Positions 19,921 through 37,970 of a DNA stretch of 64,000 nucleotides are shown piece by piece; positions within the stretch are counted from its first letter, which is position 1; each line of letters begins with the position of its first letter. The stretch comes from Candidatus Hydrogenedentota bacterium (GTDB lineage Bacteria > Hydrogenedentota > Hydrogenedentia > Hydrogenedentales > JAJRTN01). The position numbers and the translations under genes were made by a program. The stretch covers positions 1 through 64,000 of the forward strand of contig JAJRTN010000009.1 of the NCBI GenBank assembly GCA_024278275.1, in the 5' to 3' direction. Below the pieces are notes generated by a model. It saw only the letters and a program-made list of their open reading frames with translations, ran no database searches and was not told the origin of the DNA.

Positions 19921-20165
19921 CCCGGCGCAGCCGGAATCATTTCCGCGGAGAACCGTGGTTCCGAGGCAAAGTAGAAGAGGCTTCCAGCCTCTTCAAAGCG
20001 GCTGGAAGCCGCTTCTACATTACCGTCATCCCCGCGAAAGCGGGGCTCCATGATTGGGACAAGCCCTTGACCTTCCCCGTGGATTCCCGCATTCGCGGGA
20101 ATGACGAAAGGGGGGGAGAAACACCTTTTTGTACCCTTTTGCACAGAACTTCACGGGTAAGGGAC
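19921..20165 (+). repeat. Dispersed intergenic repeat, family A, long copy 2
   Basis: From CCCGGC...GCCGGA through CGGAGAACCGTGGTTCCGAG, AAGAGGCTTCCA, GTCATCCCCGCGAAAGCGGG, GTGGATTCCCGC and GGGAATGACG to ACTTCACGGGTAAGG, this matches 28941-29160 block by block. It contains an extra hairpin, GAGGCTTCCAGCCTC...GGCTGGAAGCC (19976-20015). The rest of the 463-bp gap up to 20383 holds no gene, only an ATTTCGTGTATTTTGTG tract (about 20177) and a small hairpin near 20215. Confidence 0.8.
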
Positions 20166-27523: not shown

Positions 27524-28630
27524 CTAAAAGCCGCCAAAGTGTTGGGCGTCGGCACCTTTGCTCCGGAAAACGAGCTTGCGCTGGTTGCGCTGCCGATCCA
27601 TGACCACGACCCCGCCCTGCCGCCGGATGGACTGAATCACGAAACGATTCTGGATAAGTCCGTTTATACCTGCCCGTTCCTCGGGGATTGGCCGGCCGTT
27701 CTGGTCCCGGTAAGTGTCGTTGTGGAGCGTGAATTCCGCCCACTGGGCCCCTTCGTCATAATCCTTCAACACCATGTTGTAGGCCTTGAGTTCAGCGTCC
27801 ACCACCCCCTTCAGGTTTCGGAAGGTTGACGAGGGATCGATCAGCATGGCACGCTCAACCAGTGAATTGGCTTTCCGGTAATTGGCCTCGCTGTAAGGCT
27901 CCTTATCCAGCAGGCCGTTTATCTCCTCGACCAACTGGTTGCGTAGGTTTTCCATGACCTCCCGATCCTGGCTGGTCTTGTTGTAATTGGCAACCCGCAC
28001 GCTCTCCTCGAAGGCCTCAATAAGCGGCTCGCCCCGGCTCAACATGAGCAACGCCTCGTTCTGCATGAGGACGGGGGCCACGGTGTCATCGGTTTTCATG
28101 TAGGCCATGAGTTTGCCCGTCCCCATCACCAGGAGCGTGATGAGCACTACGGCCCCGATAGCAATGCCGGTAATCTTCAGTGCTTTCTCAATGGGCTCGG
28201 GAATACCACCGGACCGCCGGGCCGCCGGGGGCCGGGGGGTGTAGGCATCCGCCAAAACAGACTGGGCCAAGTCCTTGTGGCGGGCGTCCAGCTTGGAAAA
28301 GCTGTCCTGGCCGGCGGCCGGCCGGCTTGGCGCGGGCTCCTCTTTCCTGTGAAACCATGAGCCCTTGCTCTCGCTCTGCCGACGTTGCGCCTCCATGGCC
28401 ATTTCCTGTTCGGCGCGGAAAGCCTCCAGGGCGTCTTTCACGTTACCCGACAGGGTGTAGGTGGTGGTCTGTTCACCGCCCAGATCCTTGATGGTTACTT
28501 TTTGTTCTTCCCGCTTCGGCCGCCCCACTTCCTCCCCGCAGTAGCGACACTTCGTGGCCCACGCACTGATCACCATCCGGCAAATAGGACACTGCCGCTG
28601 TTCCTCGTCCCTGCGAATTTTATTGGCCAA
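27524..28630 (-). CDS. Zinc-ribbon single-pass membrane protein
   Basis: 368 residues with a TTG start at 28630, supported by GGGAGG 6 nt upstream. An N-terminal zinc ribbon, CPICRMVISAWATKCRYCG, is followed by a charged helical linker, one transmembrane helix (GIAIGAVVLITLLVMGTGKLM, near residue 160) and a helical extracytoplasmic domain with TPR-like spacing (EPYSEANYRKANSLVERAML). The C-terminus is beta-rich with RRQGGVVVMDRQRNQRKLVF, resembling the general-secretion-associated pilus-assembly-type beta hook. The function is unknown; it could be an envelope sensor or a scaffold for the two downstream genes. Confidence 0.65.
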   Translation of the reverse strand: MANKIRRDEEQRQCPICRMVISAWATKCRYCGEEVGRPKREEQKVTIKDLGGEQTTTYTLSGNVKDALEAFRAEQEMAMEAQRRQSESKGSWFHRKEEPAPSRPAAGQDSFSKLDARHKDLAQSVLADAYTPRPPAARRSGGIPEPIEKALKITGIAIGAVVLITLLVMGTGKLMAYMKTDDTVAPVLMQNEALLMLSRGEPLIEAFEESVRVANYNKTSQDREVMENLRNQLVEEINGLLDKEPYSEANYRKANSLVERAMLIDPSSTFRNLKGVVDAELKAYNMVLKDYDEGAQWAEFTLHNDTYRDQNGRPIPEERAGINGLIQNRFVIQSIRRQGGVVVMDRQRNQRKLVFRSKGADAQHFGGF

Positions 28631-29220
28631 GATTTACCTCCCCCCTACCACCCCTGTGTTTTTCCGCTTGTTCTCATCGGCACGCCAAGCAATCCGTTCC
28701 GAGTGTATTCCGCAAGACCGGGCACTGTCCAGCCACCGCCGCCATTGCGCTGTCCAACGTACCCTGACAATGTAACCTATTCTCCATCATGGCGCAAGTG
28801 GCCGAACAGTCAAAAGGGCGAAGCAGCCCCCGTGGACAGCATGGAGGAGAATGGCCGTAGGGGCGAAAATCGATCTCTCGCAAGGCCGCGGCATGACGGA
28901 ATCAGAATGGACGGTCTCGTTAAAACCCGTCTCTTCTTGACCCGGCAAGGCCGGAGCCAAGCATCGTCTCCACGGAGAACCGTGTTTCGAAGAAAAATTG
29001 AAGAGGCTTCCACGTTATCGTTATCCCTGCGAAAGCGGGGCTCCATGATCGGGGGCAACACCTCGACCTTTCCCGTGGATTCCCGCGTGCGCGGGAATGA
29101 CGGCAGGAAGGGGCAAAGACACCGTTTCGTGACCATGGATACAGAACCTCGTGAGTAAGGAATGAGGTGACGCCAATTGCCCTGGAGGCACGCGGCCTGC
29201 TATAACTGCGTCACCTTCGG
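28631..29220. other. Divergent intergenic region without a gene
   Basis: 590 bp between divergent genes. The right half is a long family A repeat. The left half contains AT-richer sequence that could hold promoters for both directions, but I see no confident -10/-35 pair. Short open frames have no family signatures. Confidence 0.55.
28941..29160 (+). repeat. Dispersed intergenic repeat, family A, long copy 3
   Basis: It shares with 19921-20165 the blocks CCCGGC...GCCGGA, CGGAGAACCGTG, TGAAGAGGCTTCCA, GCGAAAGCGGGGCTCCATGA, GTGGATTCCCGC, GCGGGAATGACG and a tail ending GAACCTCGTGAGTAAGG. Compared with copy 2 the internal GCCTCTTC/GAAGCC hairpin is missing, as if precisely lost. Confidence 0.8.
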
Positions 29221-30189
29221 ATGGGCGGTATGCACGGCAAGAACTCCTCGAATTACCAAATCCCCTGGCAAGAACGCTGTTTGGCAGTCATCGCCTATTC
29301 GGGCGGGCTACCGTTGCTCGCACTGATGCCACGGTGGCGAAAGCGCCCTTTCGTTGCCCATCACTACAACCATGCGGGCGCGGTTATTCTCCTTCTCTTT
29401 ATTTCCGTGGGCATCGCCGCCGCCGTTCTGCTGACGCTGAGTTACCTCCTGGTCTTCCACCGTGTTCCCTACGAACGCTTCCATATCGAAATTCATATGC
29501 TCTCGACCCTGCGGAAGATGTTTCTGTGCTGGGCCGTGCTTTGGGTTTTCGCGGTGGTGCTGGCCACACTCGGTTCCACCCGCCATGTCTTGCTGGTAAC
29601 ACGTCTTGCGGGAAAAAGCGGCCTGCTTCGTGCCGCCGTGCTTCTCTCCGTGGCAGCCTATGGGGTGCTCCTCGCGGTCATCCCCGCAGCCGTCCATGCC
29701 ACCACGCTGGTACGAAGCGACACGGCGCCCGGGTCCGTCTATTTCGTGTATGAGGATCTCGACACATTCCCCCGGTGGCTTTTCGCCCTGGGATTTTATC
29801 CCCTTTCCCTCGAAGCACGGCGGCTATACGGGCCGGGCAGCACCGTCCTGCTGCCTTTGAGTCCACAAGCCGTCGCCCGCGCGAAACGGGAGGGACGATT
29901 CGTTGTTTTCGGGGTTCATGGACGTCCCCGGGGCATGGCGGATCGCTCGGGTTGGATCACGCCCCAAGACGTTCAGGCCATGCCGGGAAGCGATAGGCTT
30001 CAGTTTGTCTACCTGTCCAACTGCGACAGTGGCGCGCAACGCGCGGAATGGGAAAAGGCCTTCGCGCCCGCCCGCGTGGTTACCTTCGACCGGCTCAGCG
30101 CGGTGGTGGAACATATCTGGTGGTTGTGGTTCCGGGCCCCCGCCGTGCTGCGTAAGATTACCGCGGAAACAAAAAAACATGAGGAATGA
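29221..30189 (+). CDS. Membrane protein with a caspase/CHAT-like His-Cys pattern
   Basis: 322 residues with about four transmembrane helices in the first 160 (HYNHAGAVILLLFISVGIAAA, CWAVLWVFAVVLATLG, LLSVAAYGVLLAVIPA). The rest is soluble. It contains RFVVFGVHGRPRGM and, 32 residues after that His, LQFVYLSNCDSGAQR. A hydrophobic strand ending in His-Gly and another ending in x-Cys-x-x-Gly is the catalytic dyad layout of clan CD peptidases (caspases, CHAT). This is inference from pattern only. The ribosome site before the ATG is weak, so the start is uncertain; a second ATG lies at 29230. It precedes the sugar operon by 87 bp. Confidence 0.6.
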   Translation: MGGMHGKNSSNYQIPWQERCLAVIAYSGGLPLLALMPRWRKRPFVAHHYNHAGAVILLLFISVGIAAAVLLTLSYLLVFHRVPYERFHIEIHMLSTLRKMFLCWAVLWVFAVVLATLGSTRHVLLVTRLAGKSGLLRAAVLLSVAAYGVLLAVIPAAVHATTLVRSDTAPGSVYFVYEDLDTFPRWLFALGFYPLSLEARRLYGPGSTVLLPLSPQAVARAKREGRFVVFGVHGRPRGMADRSGWITPQDVQAMPGSDRLQFVYLSNCDSGAQRAEWEKAFAPARVVTFDRLSAVVEHIWWLWFRAPAVLRKITAETKKHEE

Positions 30190-30276: not shown

Positions 30277-31188
30277 TTGAGCAGTCACAGGAACACGCGG
30301 GAATTGATGTTGAGGGCGCTGGAGGCCGGTACGGTCATTCCCGCGTTTAATATACCTTATCTGCCCATGATGGAACCGGTGGTCCGTGCCTTGCGCGACA
30401 CGGGCAACTTCGGCCTGGTCATGGTGGCACGACTGGAATGGATCAAATTTGAGGCAAAGGGCTTGCGCGAAATCCGCGACCAGTACGAGGAGGTCAAGGA
30501 CGAACAGTACACCCGGCTCCACCTGGACCACGTGCCCGTCATCGACGAGGATCAGCTTCGGGTGCCCTACCTGGAGGAGCTTACCCAGGCCGTCGAATTG
30601 GGCTACGAATCCATCATGGTGGACGGGTCGCGTCTGCCCTTCGGGGAAAACGTGGCCGCCACGAAGCGCGTGGTGGATATGGCCCACAGCGCGGGAATCC
30701 CGGTGGAAGCCGAGCTGGGCGCGGTGATGGGCCACGAAGACGGCCCCATGCCGCCCTACGAGGAATTGTTCGCGTCCGGCAAGGGATTCACCGACCCGGA
30801 GGAAGCGAAGCGCTTTGTCGAGGAAACAGGGGTGGACTGGCTTTCCGTGGCCATCGGCAGCGTGCATGGGGCCATCTCCGCCGCGAAAAAAAACGAAAAA
30901 AAGGTGGAGGCACGGCTCAGTATTGAGCAGCTTCAGGCCATTCGACGGGCGGTGGACGTCCCCATTGTTCTCCATGGGGGCACGGGAATCCGGAAGACCT
31001 ACATCATGGAGGCCATTAAGAACGGCATTGCCAAAATCAACGTGGCCACCGCGATCCGCCAGCCCTATGAAGCCCACCGGGAGACATCGGTCGAGCGGGC
31101 GCAGGAAGCGGTTTATGATGCCATGGTCAAGGTATTACACGAAGAATTGGAGCTAAGAAACTCCGCTGATATTATCAATCCGTTGTAA
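30277..31188 (+). CDS. Class II fructose/ketose-bisphosphate aldolase
   Basis: 303 residues with a TTG start at 30277 and AGGAG 8 nt upstream. Class II aldolases use zinc to split ketose phosphates into DHAP and an aldehyde. AFNIPYLPMMEPV opens the barrel; HLDHVP holds the first zinc His and the catalytic Asp, EAELGAVMGHED the acidic residue, VAIGSVHG the second His, and IVLHGGTGI the third. The family includes fructose-, tagatose- and other ketose-specific members. Immediately downstream are an L-fucose-isomerase-like enzyme and an FGGY kinase, so its substrate is probably the ketose phosphate made by those two. Confidence 0.9.
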   Translation: MSSHRNTRELMLRALEAGTVIPAFNIPYLPMMEPVVRALRDTGNFGLVMVARLEWIKFEAKGLREIRDQYEEVKDEQYTRLHLDHVPVIDEDQLRVPYLEELTQAVELGYESIMVDGSRLPFGENVAATKRVVDMAHSAGIPVEAELGAVMGHEDGPMPPYEELFASGKGFTDPEEAKRFVEETGVDWLSVAIGSVHGAISAAKKNEKKVEARLSIEQLQAIRRAVDVPIVLHGGTGIRKTYIMEAIKNGIAKINVATAIRQPYEAHRETSVERAQEAVYDAMVKVLHEELELRNSADIINPL

Positions 31189-31258
31189 GGTGGGCCCTGG
31201 CCCACCAAGCGGAACCGAACGAAGGCGATGAATGGATCATGGTGGGCCTTGGCCCACC
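31189..31258. repeat. Two copies of an 18-bp palindrome, family C-like
   Basis: GGTGGGCCCTGGCCCACC (31189-31206) and GGTGGGCCTTGGCCCACC (31241-31258) are 34 bp apart and differ by one base. They begin directly after the aldolase stop and precede the isomerase gene. They could trim or stabilise the operon mRNA. The architecture resembles the palindrome at 11573 and 49062. Confidence 0.7.
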
Positions 31259-31305
31259 ACGAATGATACGAAACGCCGCCTTGCGCGGCCACGAGGAGAA
31301 TAACC

Positions 31306-32712
31306 ATGGAAAACGCCAAGTGTACCTTCGCCCTTTTCTTTGGCAACCGGGGCTTCTTTCCCGCCTCGCTCATGTCGAGCGCGCGGAAGGAGCTGTCGGG
31401 GGCGTTGAAGAAACTGGGGTATGGCACCCTTATGCTGGATGCCCGCGCCACGCGCCACGGCGCGGTGGAGACCCCGGCGGAGGGCGCGATCTACGCCGAG
31501 TTCCTGCGTAAGAACGCGGGCAGGTTCGACGGGGTGATCCTCTGCCTGCCCAACTTCGGGGACGAAACGGGCGCGGTGTCGGCGCTGAAGGATGCGGGCG
31601 TGCCCATCCTGGTACAGGCCTATCCCGATGAGTTGGACAAGTTCGATATGGCCACGCGTCGCGATGCCTTCTGCGGCAAGTTCTCCGTGATGGATGTGTT
31701 CTGTCAGTACGGGGTAAAGTTCACGGCACTCAAGCCGCATACCGCCCATCCGGGCAGCGCCCAGTTCGCCGCCAACGTGGATTATTTCGACCGCATGTGC
31801 CGCGTGGTGAAGCGCCTGAAGAACATGACCATCGGCGCGATTGGCGCGCGCACCACGGCGTTCAAGACGGTGCGTATCGACGAGCTGGCGTTACAACGCC
31901 ACGGCGTCACCATGGAGACGGTGGATCTCTCGGAGGTCTTCGCACGGATGAACGCCCTCAAGGCCACGGAAAAGAAGGTCGTGAGCAAGGCCAAGCGCCT
32001 GAAGGGCTATACCGCCTGGAAGGGTGTGCCCAAGAAAGCCTTCGACAGCCTGGTGCGCCTGGGGGTCGTTCTTGATGACCTGGCCGAGGAGATGGATCTG
32101 GATGCCATGGCGGTGCGCTGCTGGATCGAGATGCAGAAGCAACTGGGCATCAGTCCGTGTGTGCTCCTCAGCGAGTTGAACGACCGCTACCAGGTGGCGG
32201 CGTGCGAGGTAGACGTTGGCAGCGCGGTGACCATGCACGCCCTTGGCGCGGCATCGATGGACGTGGCGACCTGCCTGGACTGGAACATCAACTATGGCGA
32301 TGAAGAGGACAAGTGCATCCTCTTCCATTGCGGTCCCGTGCCCCAGTCCATGATGACCGCCAAGGGCAAGGTGGTGGACCACGCCATCCTGGAGAACGCG
32401 GTGGGAAAGGGCTGCGGGTTCGGTTGCAATGTGGGCCGTATCGCGCCCATGGACATGACCTTCGGCAACCTCGTGACCGAAGACGGCAAGATGAAGTTCT
32501 ATCTCGGCCAGGGCCGGTTCACCGACGATCCCATTGCGGCCAACTTCTTCGGTTGCGCGGGCGTCGCCCAAATCGACAACCTGCAAGACGCCCTGGTTAC
32601 CATTGGCGCCGCCGGCCACCGTCACCACACCGCCGTGACGCCCGGTCATGTGGCGGCCCCGGTGCTTGAAGCCTTCGAGAAGTACCTGGGCTACGAGGTA
32701 ACTTCGGTATGA
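31306..32712 (+). CDS. L-fucose isomerase-like protein
   Basis: 468 residues with GAGGAG ahead of the ATG at 31306. The N-terminal Rossmann-like part (VILCLPNFGDETGAV) and the C-terminal half (CDWNINYG-type segment TCLDWNINYGDEED, FHCGPVPQSM, GHRHHTAVTPGHV) fit the fucose/arabinose isomerase fold, in which two domains bind Mn and the ring-opened sugar. It is shorter than E. coli FucI (about 590 residues) and resembles the wider family of FucI-like aldose-ketose isomerases. The stop overlaps the kinase start as ATGA, so the genes are translationally coupled. Confidence 0.78.
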   Translation: MENAKCTFALFFGNRGFFPASLMSSARKELSGALKKLGYGTLMLDARATRHGAVETPAEGAIYAEFLRKNAGRFDGVILCLPNFGDETGAVSALKDAGVPILVQAYPDELDKFDMATRRDAFCGKFSVMDVFCQYGVKFTALKPHTAHPGSAQFAANVDYFDRMCRVVKRLKNMTIGAIGARTTAFKTVRIDELALQRHGVTMETVDLSEVFARMNALKATEKKVVSKAKRLKGYTAWKGVPKKAFDSLVRLGVVLDDLAEEMDLDAMAVRCWIEMQKQLGISPCVLLSELNDRYQVAACEVDVGSAVTMHALGAASMDVATCLDWNINYGDEEDKCILFHCGPVPQSMMTAKGKVVDHAILENAVGKGCGFGCNVGRIAPMDMTFGNLVTEDGKMKFYLGQGRFTDDPIAANFFGCAGVAQIDNLQDALVTIGAAGHRHHTAVTPGHVAAPVLEAFEKYLGYEVTSV

Positions 32713-34184
32713 GCCTGCTTGGGTTGGATGTGGGCACCTCCGGCTGCAAGGCAGCCGCCTATTCGCTGGATGGCGCGTGCCTGGCAACGGCCTACCGGGA
32801 GTATGACGAGTTACATCCCCGGCCCAATTGGGCCGAGTTGGACAGTCGCGCGGTCATGGCCTTCGTCTTCGAAACCATCGCGGAGGTGGCGGCGGAGACG
32901 AAGGCCGACCCCGTGACGGCCCTGTGCGTGAGCACCATGGGCGAGGCCATGACACCCGTTTCGGCCTCGGGCGAAATCCTTGGGAACAGCATGCTCGGTG
33001 TGGACCTGCGGGGCGCGGCGCACGTGGATCGGCTGAAAGAGGAGATGGGACAGGAGGCGTTCTACGCCATCAACCCCAATATCCTGGCGCCGAACTATTC
33101 GCTGCCCAAGTTGCTGTGGATGCGGGAGCACGACCCGGAGACCTACGGCCAGACCTGGAAGTTTCTGCTCTGGGGTGACCTGGTTTACTTCCGCCTCGGC
33201 GGCCGGCCGGTGACCAGCCACTCCCACGCGAACCGCACGCTGCTCTATGATATCCGCGGGGAAGACTGGTCGCCCACGCTGCTCGAATGGGCGGGTATCG
33301 AGCGGGAAAAGCTGCCCGATTGTGTTCCCAGCGGCACGATTGCGGGCACCGTGTCCGACGCGGTGGCCGAGAAACTGGGCCTGTCAAAAGGGGTGCAAAT
33401 CGTGGTGGGCGGCCACGACCAGTGCTGCAATTCCCTGGGCGCGGGAATCTGCGAAGCGGGACAGGCCGTCTGTGGCATGGGGACCGTGGAGTGCATCACC
33501 CCCACCTTCGGGCATATTCCCGAGGCGGCGGCCATGCTGGGCAACGGCCTGAACGTGGAGCACCATCTGCTGAAAGGACTCTACGTCTCCTTCATCTACA
33601 ATCAGAGCGGCGTGCTGGTGAAATGGTTCCGCGACACCTTCGCCAACGGGGAAATCTCCTATGAGGCGCTGACTGCGGAAATGCCCGAAACGCCGACCCG
33701 GTTGCTGGTACTCCCCCACTTCGAGATTACCGGGGCTCCCGATTTCATCACGAACAGCGCGGGGCTCATCGCCGGTCTGCGCACCAACACGCAACGGGGC
33801 GAGATCCTCAAGGCCATCATGGAAAGTGCCACCTTCTACTTCGCCGAGAGCATCGATGCCTTACGCGCCATGGGTATCGACACGTCGGAGTTCATCGCCA
33901 CCGGCGGGGGGGCGAAATCGGATGCCTGGCTTCAGATCAAGGCCGACATCCTGGGCATCCCTTTTGTACGTCCGAAAATCACGGAATGCGGCACCCTGGG
34001 CGCGGCGATCCTGGCCGGCCTTGCGACGGGAGCCTTTTCCGATGCAAAGGAGGGGATCGAGGTCTTCGTCGAGCGAGACCGGGTCTTTGAACCCGACCCT
34101 GGACGGCACGAGGCATACCGGGACCTCTATGGCCAATACCGGAAGGTGTATCCTGCCATGAAGGACGTGCTGGCGGCGCTGTAG
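32709..34184 (+). CDS. FGGY-family carbohydrate kinase
   Basis: 491 residues. The first domain begins SLLGLDVGTSGCKAAAY, the phosphate-1 motif, and has NWAELDSRAVM. GGHDQCCNSLGAG is the conserved segment where GHD supplies the catalytic Asp. The second domain contains IATGGGAKSDAWLQIKADILGIP, the adenosine-binding signature of the family. Related enzymes phosphorylate xylulose, fuculose, ribulose or glycerol. With the isomerase and aldolase it completes a route aldose to ketose to ketose phosphate to two C2-C4 fragments. No transporter or regulator is adjacent. Confidence 0.9.
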   Translation: MSLLGLDVGTSGCKAAAYSLDGACLATAYREYDELHPRPNWAELDSRAVMAFVFETIAEVAAETKADPVTALCVSTMGEAMTPVSASGEILGNSMLGVDLRGAAHVDRLKEEMGQEAFYAINPNILAPNYSLPKLLWMREHDPETYGQTWKFLLWGDLVYFRLGGRPVTSHSHANRTLLYDIRGEDWSPTLLEWAGIEREKLPDCVPSGTIAGTVSDAVAEKLGLSKGVQIVVGGHDQCCNSLGAGICEAGQAVCGMGTVECITPTFGHIPEAAAMLGNGLNVEHHLLKGLYVSFIYNQSGVLVKWFRDTFANGEISYEALTAEMPETPTRLLVLPHFEITGAPDFITNSAGLIAGLRTNTQRGEILKAIMESATFYFAESIDALRAMGIDTSEFIATGGGAKSDAWLQIKADILGIPFVRPKITECGTLGAAILAGLATGAFSDAKEGIEVFVERDRVFEPDPGRHEAYRDLYGQYRKVYPAMKDVLAAL

Positions 34185-34424: not shown

Positions 34425-37400
34425 TTAGCTGCCGTCTTCAACGCCCGTGTTGGCGGCGTCCACGAAAACAATGTCGATGCCCGTCCCGTCAAGGGTCACG
34501 TCCACCGTGCTTTCGTCCGCGTCGTCACTCACGATTCGCAGTGTGGCGGATTTCGCGCCCAGGCCGCCGGGGTCGAATGCCACCTGTACGATGCGGCTTG
34601 CCGCGGGGGCCAGGGTGCCCTCGCCCGTGTCGCTGGCAATGGCGAATTCACCGGGATCGGTGCCGGTGAGGCCCACGCTGGAGATGGTGAGGGTACTCGT
34701 GCCGTCGTTGGTGATGGTGACCGCCTGGGACGCCGTGGCGCCCGCGGCGGTGCCCTGGCTGCCAAAGGCGAGCGCAAGCGGTGCGACGGTAATCTCCGGC
34801 ATAACGCCCGTGCCCCCCAGGTTCACCACGACCGAGGGTTCATCGGGATCATCGCTGGTGATGGTTATGGTAGCGGATTTCGCGCCCAGGCTGGTGGGAT
34901 CGAAAGTCACTTGCAGCGTGCGCGAGGCCGACGGGGCGAGGACCGCCTCGCCTGTATCGCTGGCAATGGTAAATTCACCGGGATCGGTGCCGCCCAGGGC
35001 AACGCCGCTGATGTTCAAATTGATGTTGCCATCATTGGTGATGGTAATCGTCTGGGCACCGGTCGGCCCGGCGTCCACCCGTTGCTCACCAAAACTCAGC
35101 GACAGAGGTGAAACCACGATATTAGACTCGGGGGGCTGGGTATCCACCGTGGCCCGCCAGGCCCCACGGCCATGGGTGAAGAGATACAAGGAACTTGCGT
35201 CCTGAAACTCCATGCTCTCCACCACCACATTGGCAAAATCGGGGGTATTCATGCTGGCCCAGGTGGCGCCGGTATCGGTGGAGACAAAGATACCAAGGTC
35301 GGTCCCCACGAAAAGGTTACTGGAGAAGCCCGGCTGTACCACGATGCAATGGGTGGCAATGTCGGGCAGGTTGTTGGTGATGTCGGTCCAGGTCGTGCCG
35401 CCATCGGTGGAGCGCATGACGTGGCTTACGCCACCGCCGAAACGCGAATTGGTGGCATAGACCGTGTTGTTGACCAGGTCGTTTCCATCCACTTCGAGCC
35501 AGCTTACATAGGCCGATCCCCCCCAAGTGGGCGACAGGTCGGCCCAGACGGTGGCCGACGTGGCGGTGGTGGCCGTAGTCGTACCTTGCACAGTGCCTCC
35601 GGAAAGACCGTAATAGACCCGATCACTGTCATTAGGGTCGATGGCCCAGGCCGAAATACTCCCACTACCACTGCTCAGTGTCCCCGCCTGCACCCAGGTC
35701 ACGGTACTGCCGGTAACGGCGTTCGTTGAGCGATAAGGATACCAACCGCCATACCATATGCGCTCGGCGTTTCCGGGGTCGTGCCGGAAGGGGGCGATGA
35801 AAAGAAAATGGGAGGAGGTTTCATCGCCATTATCAAAGATAGCCGTGAATGAGCCACCCCCATTGGTGGAACGGTTCAGGTCGTTGTAGGTCGTCTCCGC
35901 AAACAGCGTACTGGTGTTGGCAGGATCAAAACTTACATAGCCCCCGTCGCCACCGTGAATCTCCGTCCAATTATTAAGGCCCCCACCGTCGGTTCCCCGA
36001 ATGGTGCCGTTGTCCTGCGTGCCTCCAAAGTAGGTCGTCGTGGGCGAAGGGTAGGGCCGGCCATGGTAGAACTGGGTGACGCCATAGCCGTTATTGAGCG
36101 GCGTAAAGGTTACGGAAGGCAGTGTTGAACCGTTGTAGCAGATGCCGTCTCCCCCGGTACCGCCGGTGGCCACGGTGCCCATGGCATTGTTGCTGGCGTA
36201 GACGCCGCCGTCGTTACCCACGAAGAGGGTCTGGTTGGTCGAGCCGTCCCAGCCGGGATCAAAGGCGATGGCGTGTTGGTCGGCATGAACATAGCCCGTG
36301 GAACCGGCCACCCACCAATAACTGATGATGCCCCAAGTCGCGCCGCCGTCATCGGACCGGAACAGGTCGATGCCGCCAGAGTAAAGCACGTTCCGGTCGT
36401 GTGGCGCCACGGCGATGATATTGTCATACCATCCCTGATTGAGCAGGGAATTGGACCCAAAGCCGCAGGGGGACATGTTCGCAATAATCGGGTTGGTCAG
36501 GAGCAGCCAGTCGGCGTTGGTCTGGTCGAAAGTTCCGGCAATGCGGGCGACCCAGGTGGCCCCGCCATCGGTGCTTCGGTATACGTTCAGCAGACGATTG
36601 CTGTTGGAACGATCCGCGCTCAGGGCATACATGTACTGCTGATCACTGGGCGCGATGGCGAGATCGGAGCGGCCGAGACCGGTCGCCGTGTGAACACGCG
36701 CCCACGTGGCCCCGGCGTCGAGACTGCGATAAACGCCGTCGGTGGTGAAGCTGCCGTTAGAGGCGATGAGCGTATCCGTGGCCAAATCCGTTCGGATCTC
36801 CACATCGGTGAAACCGACGCCGGTGTTAACGACAGTCTCCGTCGCGGTATTGCCACCGTTATCGTTCAGGACCCGCGTCCAGGAAGCACCGCCGTCGGCG
36901 GTTTTCCAGATGCCCGTGCGCGTGGCGGCATAGAGCACCTGGCTGTTATTGGGGCTGGCCACGATCTTATTCACATAGTAAAAGTTGCTGTTGTTGGTCG
37001 CGGTGAGTTGGGTCCAGGTAACACCACTGTCGGTGGACTTGAAAATGCCGGCACCCCGCACGGCATCCAGGTTAAAAACACCTTCCCCGGTTCCTGCGTA
37101 GATGACCGCGGTGTTGACCGATCCGCTTCCCTGCTGTTGGAAGACCATGGAAGTGACGGCCAGGTTGTCCATGAGGTCATCCAACGGCGTCCAGTTCAGG
37201 CCGCCATCGGTGGTTTTCCACACGCCCCCGGCGACACCGCCCGCATACATGGTATTACTGTTGCCGGGATCGACCAACAGCGCCCGCGTGCGCCCCCCCA
37301 CATTTCCCGGCCCCAATTCCGTCCAGTTGGAAAGATCACCGGCCACCTTCTCAATGAAGGCTCCCATGGGGTTATTGGGATCATAGATCTGAATGCCCCC

Positions 37401-37736
37401 GGGACCAAACATGGCCCTGGGCATCTTGGCGATTTTCCGTTCGGCCTCGGCCATGGCCGCATAGTCGATGGGGCTCCCCCCCGTGCGCTGGTCAAGATAA
37501 AACCGCATGGCTTCATCGGGTTGATCATAGGGACTTTTGGCGCCTTTCTTCATCTTCCGAAGAAGGGCTTCCGGGAGCTTTTTCTCCGGGGATAACGGAC
37601 CATTCCCCGTTTTCACGTCCGTAGCCATCCCGCTCTTATCCGCCAAGGCGGGGAGCGCATACACCCCACCCAGGAGGGAGACGACTACCAACAAACCTGT
37701 TGCAAACCGCATGAACCGAGTAACCCGAACGTACAT
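34425..37736 (-). CDS. Large exported BNR/VPS10-type propeller protein with two choice-of-anchor D modules, truncated
   Basis: 1103 residues from the ATG at 37736 (GGAG about 11 nt upstream). A signal peptide ends YALPALA. Residues about 100-870 are a sialidase/VPS10-like propeller with many Asp-box-like units such as STDGGATWV and KTADGGASWT. Two tandem ASPM/HYDIN-like modules (choice-of-anchor D) follow, each with LSFG, TDPGEF, ASDTGE, LGAKSAT and SDDPDEPS-type landmarks. The frame then enters VDAANTGVEDGS and stops. No sorting tail remains, so the product would be released rather than anchored unless the stop is read through. Substrate unknown; BNR propellers often bind glycans. Confidence 0.78.
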   Translation of the reverse strand: MYVRVTRFMRFATGLLVVVSLLGGVYALPALADKSGMATDVKTGNGPLSPEKKLPEALLRKMKKGAKSPYDQPDEAMRFYLDQRTGGSPIDYAAMAEAERKIAKMPRAMFGPGGIQIYDPNNPMGAFIEKVAGDLSNWTELGPGNVGGRTRALLVDPGNSNTMYAGGVAGGVWKTTDGGLNWTPLDDLMDNLAVTSMVFQQQGSGSVNTAVIYAGTGEGVFNLDAVRGAGIFKSTDSGVTWTQLTATNNSNFYYVNKIVASPNNSQVLYAATRTGIWKTADGGASWTRVLNDNGGNTATETVVNTGVGFTDVEIRTDLATDTLIASNGSFTTDGVYRSLDAGATWARVHTATGLGRSDLAIAPSDQQYMYALSADRSNSNRLLNVYRSTDGGATWVARIAGTFDQTNADWLLLTNPIIANMSPCGFGSNSLLNQGWYDNIIAVAPHDRNVLYSGGIDLFRSDDGGATWGIISYWWVAGSTGYVHADQHAIAFDPGWDGSTNQTLFVGNDGGVYASNNAMGTVATGGTGGDGICYNGSTLPSVTFTPLNNGYGVTQFYHGRPYPSPTTTYFGGTQDNGTIRGTDGGGLNNWTEIHGGDGGYVSFDPANTSTLFAETTYNDLNRSTNGGGSFTAIFDNGDETSSHFLFIAPFRHDPGNAERIWYGGWYPYRSTNAVTGSTVTWVQAGTLSSGSGSISAWAIDPNDSDRVYYGLSGGTVQGTTTATTATSATVWADLSPTWGGSAYVSWLEVDGNDLVNNTVYATNSRFGGGVSHVMRSTDGGTTWTDITNNLPDIATHCIVVQPGFSSNLFVGTDLGIFVSTDTGATWASMNTPDFANVVVESMEFQDASSLYLFTHGRGAWRATVDTQPPESNIVVSPLSLSFGEQRVDAGPTGAQTITITNDGNINLNISGVALGGTDPGEFTIASDTGEAVLAPSASRTLQVTFDPTSLGAKSATITITSDDPDEPSVVVNLGGTGVMPEITVAPLALAFGSQGTAAGATASQAVTITNDGTSTLTISSVGLTGTDPGEFAIASDTGEGTLAPAASRIVQVAFDPGGLGAKSATLRIVSDDADESTVDVTLDGTGIDIVFVDAANTGVEDGS

Positions 37737-37970
37737 ACGCCGCCAATCTCCCAGATCTTGGCCGCCAGAGTCCACGCCACATGGGCCGGTGGACCCGGGT
37801 CAAACCGTCAGTTTTCGGTCTTTTATAAAAGGGAGAACCGACGCCACAGAGCACGGCATTCCCTGCTGCCATGATAATTGTACCTTGTTAGCGGAAATTG
37901 CGCCAATACGAAGCCAGGCATCCGTCTCTCCGCTCACGCTCCTGCCCATGCTCCTCCGTCGGAACAAGAG

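Follow-up and report, generated by a model that had tools for sequence, protein, structure and literature searches.

The window analyzed here, the whole 64,000-nucleotide stretch, comprises bases 1–64000 of a contig of 65.7 kb; the assembly, from Candidatus Hydrogenedentota, measures 5.35 Mb and is 96.2% complete. A sequence-only reading of this DNA had noted a membrane protein gene, and the open reading frame (ORF) lies where that reading put it, at 29221–30189 on the forward strand (Table 1). Its first codon may alternatively be the ATG at 29230. The gene is genuine, present in one copy in its own genome and with a homologue in 36 of the 68 genomes of this little-studied phylum.

Table 1. 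Features of the gene for the membrane-bound, clan CD-like protein (positions in the window)
Feature	Position	Strand	Basis
Whole gene, 322 aa plus stop	29221–30189	+	ORF list, homologues, alignment A1
DUF4870/HOTT (Tic20 superfamily)-like start of membrane part	29278–29457	+	hhalign 85.1% (27 columns); PF09685 in 3/30 members
Third and fourth hydrophobic helices, about residues 100–118 and 137–160	29518–29700	+	Family-averaged hydropathy
Soluble clan CD-like cysteine peptidase domain, residues 166–322 (predicted extracytoplasmic)	29716–30186	+	hhalign, shuffles, charge bias
His233, presumed catalytic histidine (HG motif)	29917–29919	+	Invariant in 30/30; aligns with CHAT, C25, and C14 His
Cys268, presumed catalytic cysteine (C-D-S-G)	30022–30024	+	Invariant in 30/30; aligns with CHAT, C25, and C14 Cys
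His298, second invariant histidine, in the segment E-H-x-W-W-L-W	30112–30114	+	Invariant in 30/30

Upstream and divergent from the gene lie genes for a zinc-ribbon-like protein (27524–28630), a likely lipoprotein, and a membrane protein, as described by eye; none of the three matches a Pfam model at E ≤ 0.01. Their arrangement is kept in 11, 10, and 10, respectively, of the 36 loci compared for context, and these loci come from bacterial families f1, f3, f8, f9, and f11. About 90 bases downstream, on the same strand, genes for a class II fructose-bisphosphate aldolase, an L-fucose isomerase-type protein, and an FGGY kinase (30277–34184) form a sugar-use cluster. For the isomerase and the kinase, no homologous ORF occurs in the other context loci; relatives carry different downstream genes, which are convergent with the family gene. 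Convergent genes include one for a class IV aminotransferase in 15 of the 36 loci (8 kb distant in the window) and one for DapB in seven. In f7, genes for a class II aldolase/adducin and for a CBS-domain protein join the block, and ribosomal protein S20 is encoded upstream. The f10 loci have an alpha-amylase-type gene after DapB, and five of them have SurE upstream. Because ORF clustering mixes real genes with antisense shadow ORFs, we used neighbors with consistent orientation. Across the 36 context loci there was no constant partner gene: neighbors varied by lineage, and those scanned were metabolic or ribosomal genes or were unnamed.

The gap upstream of the gene holds a palindromic element, ATTCCCGC...GCGGGAATGAC, at 29079–29101. 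The pattern taken from this site recurs once in the window, at 20083–20105 with two mismatches, where none is expected by chance, and it looks like a REP-type repeat. On the reverse strand, 34425–37775 encodes a 1116-aa protein with sortilin/BNR-type repeats and C-terminal HYDIN/ASH-like Ig domains.

All 68 genomes of the phylum belong to one and the same order. A profile search found the gene in nine of its eleven families, at one copy per matching genome: f1 (1/1), f2 (1/1), f3 (2/2), f4 (2/6), f7 (4/4), f8 (1/1), f9 (3/3), f10 (16/17), and f11 (6/7). The same search found no homologue in f5 (0/25) or f6 (0/1); outside these two families, 36 of 42 genomes carry the gene. The divergent zinc-ribbon neighbor is present in 23 of the 25 f5 genomes, which themselves have no homologue, and 12 f5 and f6 loci (two of them ending upstream at a contig end) showed no remnant of the family gene beside it (best E 1.1). 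The absence from f5 may reflect loss or a late gain. Thirty of the 36 homologues, one row each, make up alignment A1, in which G021 is represented by L002; the other 29 sequences are 29–47% identical to the window protein. When genome contigs were scanned with the single protein, one relative was found, in a Candidatus Hydrogenedentota MAG, with 43% identity over the best segment. A tree of the 30 members has 7 changes of family label, the minimum, compared to a mean of 16.9 after shuffling; nine of its 27 inner branches lack resolution, and neither f10 nor f11 forms a single clade. The gene is inherited vertically in single copy, like an ordinary cell gene.

In G043, the contig that carries the homologue stops before the soluble domain. 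In G007, the homologue is split at a proline-rich stretch over two overlapping frames (L092, 9151–10095 and 9209–9871), which may reflect a frameshift, an assembly error, or decay.

We also searched 386 genomes. With the full-family profile (at most five candidates scored per genome), there were two matches outside the order, both to the membrane part only. With the soluble-part profile (at most ten candidates scored per genome), the only matches outside the order were three weak ones in two genomes (E 0.003–0.009), all covering the region of the His–Cys dyad. One lies in a C25 peptidase by Pfam (8.5e-25), and the other two are proteins of about 310 aa with no Pfam match at E ≤ 0.01. Within the genomes searched, the family is therefore restricted to one order. 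The two 310-aa proteins (L253, 324–1250, and L254, 1371–2327) have a clan CD-like HG...C motif and, by eye, a likely signal peptide; they possibly represent a second, secreted mini-family.

The soluble part of the window protein contains FVVFGVHG (residues 227–234) and FVYLSNCDSG (residues 262–271). Both strings had been picked out in the sequence-only reading, whose spacing of 32 residues was slightly off: 27 residues separate the strings, and His233 and Cys268 are 35 residues apart. Invariant columns of A1 include H233, G234, G238, P248, Y264, C268, W277, A284, and H298. Since H233, G234, and C268 are unchanged in 30 of 30 members, 29 of them at 29–47% identity to the window protein, the His–Cys motif is beyond chance. 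Outside A1, the H-G and the Cys are kept in five more sequences (G025, G035, G022, G031, and the second ORF of G007), so that the dyad is present in 35 of 36 homologues and in all 35 genomes that hold the soluble domain; G043 lacks it because its contig ends before that domain. The residues after the Cys are less strict. S-G is absent in G040 (L010), G022, and G031 and altered in rows L025, L027, and L028, with the Cys still in place in all of them.

Family profiles, our main line of evidence, connect the soluble part to clan CD peptidases. In hhalign comparisons that span only about 60–75 columns around the dyad and leave the first strand and most residues past the Cys unaligned, the soluble part matched CHAT (18 domains from the same order) at 93.9% (P 1.6e-7), C25 (20 domains) at 62.7%, and C14 (19 domains) at 38.0%, the weakest of the three. 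In all three alignments, His233 and Cys268 coincide with the H-G and the Cys of the target family. When the columns of the soluble part were shuffled 150 times for each target, values stayed at or below 2.6%, 4.8%, and 4.6% against CHAT, C25, and C14, respectively, and the membrane part alone scored 0.5% or less against all three. Profile to profile, the full family matched CHAT at 91.9%.

Single proteins gave much fainter signals. The best Pfam match of the window protein is to C25, at E 0.23 and 11.1 of the 23 bits required by Peptidase_C25 (PF01364); it has no CHAT (PF12770) match at E ≤ 10, and its only NCBIfam match is a weak one in the membrane part (E 0.12). Among A1 members searched singly, CHAT matched six of 30 (best 8.7e-4) and C25 also six of 30 (best 2.8e-3). 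Families other than CHAT, C25, and DUF4870 matched one or two members each, and the C14 family PF00656 was absent from the 24 families matched by any member at E ≤ 1. The G001 homologue, the sole family member among the PF01364 matches listed in 68 genomes, reached 21 of 23 bits. A PF12770 scan of 40 genomes listed other loci and none of this family. With no PF12770 match for the window protein, no family member listed in the 40-genome scan, and weak matches in six of 30 members, the family is not filed as CHAT. Profile searches of solved structures returned no clan CD chain: the full family matched three claudin-3 chains and no others (E from 0.43 upward), and the soluble part one dynamin-2 chain (E 0.68), and we regard these matches as noise.

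The sequence-only reading had likened the motif spacing and strand context to clan CD. Because the profiles match CHAT, C25, and C14 with dyad aligned on dyad, sequence comparison supports assignment of the soluble domain to clan CD.

Structure prediction used the window protein and L002 as its only input and gave models too uncertain to use, with a mean pLDDT of 47.3 for the full length and 48.4 for the soluble domain. The full-length model has a strand at 172–176, two helices, a strand at 227–232 before the His, and a strand at 262–266 before the Cys, followed by a helix, a strand at 285–289, and a helix; this order of elements is as expected for clan CD, and at a mean pLDDT of 47.3 we offer it as mere description. 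A Foldseek search with the soluble-domain model (mean pLDDT 48.4) had no match at E ≤ 0.001, and the 50 matches listed include no clan CD protein; we base no conclusion on it.

Hydropathy averaged over 30 homologues shows one weak hydrophobic segment at about residues 20–36 and strong ones at about 53–79, 100–118, and 137–160. The four transmembrane helices counted in the sequence-only reading are thus a fair description, although the first of them is possibly re-entrant. At its start, which holds the weak segment, a basic loop with R/K...F..HH, and the second helix, the membrane part resembles DUF4870/HOTT proteins of the Tic20 superfamily. In hhalign, the membrane part matched DUF4870 (21 domains) at 85.1% over just 27 columns, with its P..basic..F..HH..A segment aligned, and column shuffles reached at most 4.6%; profile to profile, the full family matched at 69.8%. 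Three of 30 A1 members match PF09685 singly (best 6.8e-4); the G041 homologue reaches 22.7 of the 25 bits required, and the window protein has no match. The window's own genome also has a separate DUF4870 gene (G000:C52, 12260–12590), which is matched as two fragments, one of them containing an internal TGA.

Charge suggests which way the protein faces. With segment borders that we set ourselves, we compared loops 1 and 3 with loop 2 plus the residues that follow the fourth helix; loops 1 and 3 were the more basic set in 29 of 30 members when scored by net charge and in 27 of 30 by K+R count. This bias would put loops 1 and 3 inside and therefore the soluble domain outside, so we consider that domain probably extracytoplasmic. 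PMC11628618 describes HOTT as a domain that begins with a re-entrant helix, followed by a charged loop and then two more helices. With one helix added, this arrangement agrees with an outside domain if the charged HOTT loop is cytoplasmic. That point is made uncertain by the acidic "luminal loop" that the paper mentions in MamF-like proteins; if this corresponds to loop 1, the HOTT orientation could be opposite to that deduced from charge.

The protein differs from each known group that it resembles. It shares the H-G and C-x-S-G dyad with CHAT proteins (HetF, TPR-CHAT/Csx29), its best profile match. Its domain of 157 aa is about half of the 289-position CHAT model, has no TPR repeats, and is probably extracytoplasmic. 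HetF, which gave CHAT its name, is described in PMC8406250 as a putative protease and divisome component that is essential for heterocyst development; it has one predicted transmembrane segment, while the window protein has four N-terminal hydrophobic segments. The His and Cys of gingipain-like C25 enzymes align with the dyad, and the weak C25 matches recur among the members. Here, a membrane bundle replaces the C25 secretion-type architecture, and the domain is much shorter than the 374-position model. The dyad also aligns with that of metacaspases and orthocaspases (C14), some of which have transmembrane helices. DUF4870/HOTT and Tic20 proteins (MamF, MmsF, Tic20) are alike in the membrane part, to which the window protein adds a helix and the peptidase-like domain. 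Caspase-like C14 matches number 20 in one genome of the phylum (G002), where contig C154 has five of them and C79 four; 59 of the 68 genomes have none.

A membrane tether had been considered unusual for such an enzyme. That view is weakened by published cases: in PMC3501461, 104 of 671 prokaryotic metacaspases have predicted transmembrane helices, 46 of them a single N-terminal helix that may be a signal peptide, and HetF has its own predicted transmembrane segment (PMC8406250). Membrane-bound caspase homologues are thus already known and not rare. What is new is that the domain is paired with a DUF4870/HOTT-like bundle, is short, and probably faces outward, and that the family is confined to one order among the genomes searched. 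In the literature searched, no paper joined DUF4870 with caspase or peptidase C25, and none named both Hydrogenedentota and caspase.

On balance, we lean toward a membrane-tethered clan CD cysteine peptidase with a HOTT-like anchor, an extracytoplasmic domain, and an envelope or membrane-protein substrate. The N-terminal bundle related to the DUF4870/HOTT (Tic20) superfamily would anchor the protein in the inner membrane, and the further helix would place the compact domain of about 155 residues outside it, facing the periplasm. As the catalytic dyad, His233 and Cys268 would cut a peptide bond in the substrate, which the HOTT-like part may help recruit. It is possible, though we think it doubtful, that the same domain and anchor face the cytoplasm, where a membrane signal would activate the enzyme toward cytoplasmic substrates, as is reportedly proposed for HetF-type CHAT proteins. 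Most known CHAT proteins are cytoplasmic, and the conserved Arg98-Lys99 at the start of helix 3 makes loop 2 partly basic. According to PMC8406250, HetF is found at the cell periphery and becomes cytoplasmic once its transmembrane segment is removed. Against this orientation, the charge bias favors the outside in nearly all members. The C25 relatives, moreover, are secreted, extracytoplasmic enzymes. We regard it as unlikely that the clan CD fold serves as a membrane-associated thiol enzyme or binding domain that is not a peptidase, such as a transpeptidase or an inactive sensor. In its favor are the shortness of the domain, the lack of an identified specificity pocket, the invariance of W277, A284, and H298, which equals that of the dyad, and three genomes without the S-G after the Cys; the strict conservation of both His and Cys speaks against an inactive domain.

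The sequence-only reading had further proposed that the protein may belong to a defense or stress system. Some defense systems do use CHAT and caspase-like proteases as effectors, for example TPR-CHAT/Csx29, and a membrane-bound caspase-like protease could in principle be an anti-phage or cell-death effector. The data speak against this role. None of the 30 members matched PADLOC at E ≤ 1, and viral contigs, plasmids, and phages gave no match. The gene is carried in one copy by most genomes outside f5 and f6, its tree follows the bacterial family labels, and its lineage-dependent neighbors, as far as scanned, are metabolic, ribosomal, or unnamed genes that mark no defense role. Given this distribution, tree, and neighborhood, we consider a defense function very improbable; a stress or envelope role may apply. 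A more ambitious form of the envelope peptidase, which we rate as a long shot, is a one-piece membrane sorting peptidase, in which the Tic20/HOTT bundle would capture membrane-protein clients and pass them to the extracytoplasmic clan CD enzyme, which would cut, or cut and transfer, their ends. GPI8 is a membrane-bound clan CD transamidase, and the protein would be its bacterial counterpart in kind, a near-core envelope enzyme in most Hydrogenedentota families.

The family adds a minimal clan CD domain fused to a Tic20/HOTT-type bundle, an architecture that we did not find in the literature searched. If the domain is extracytoplasmic and active, this would suggest everyday envelope tasks for caspase-type proteases as well and would tie DUF4870/HOTT, a family that is almost uncharacterized, to proteolysis.
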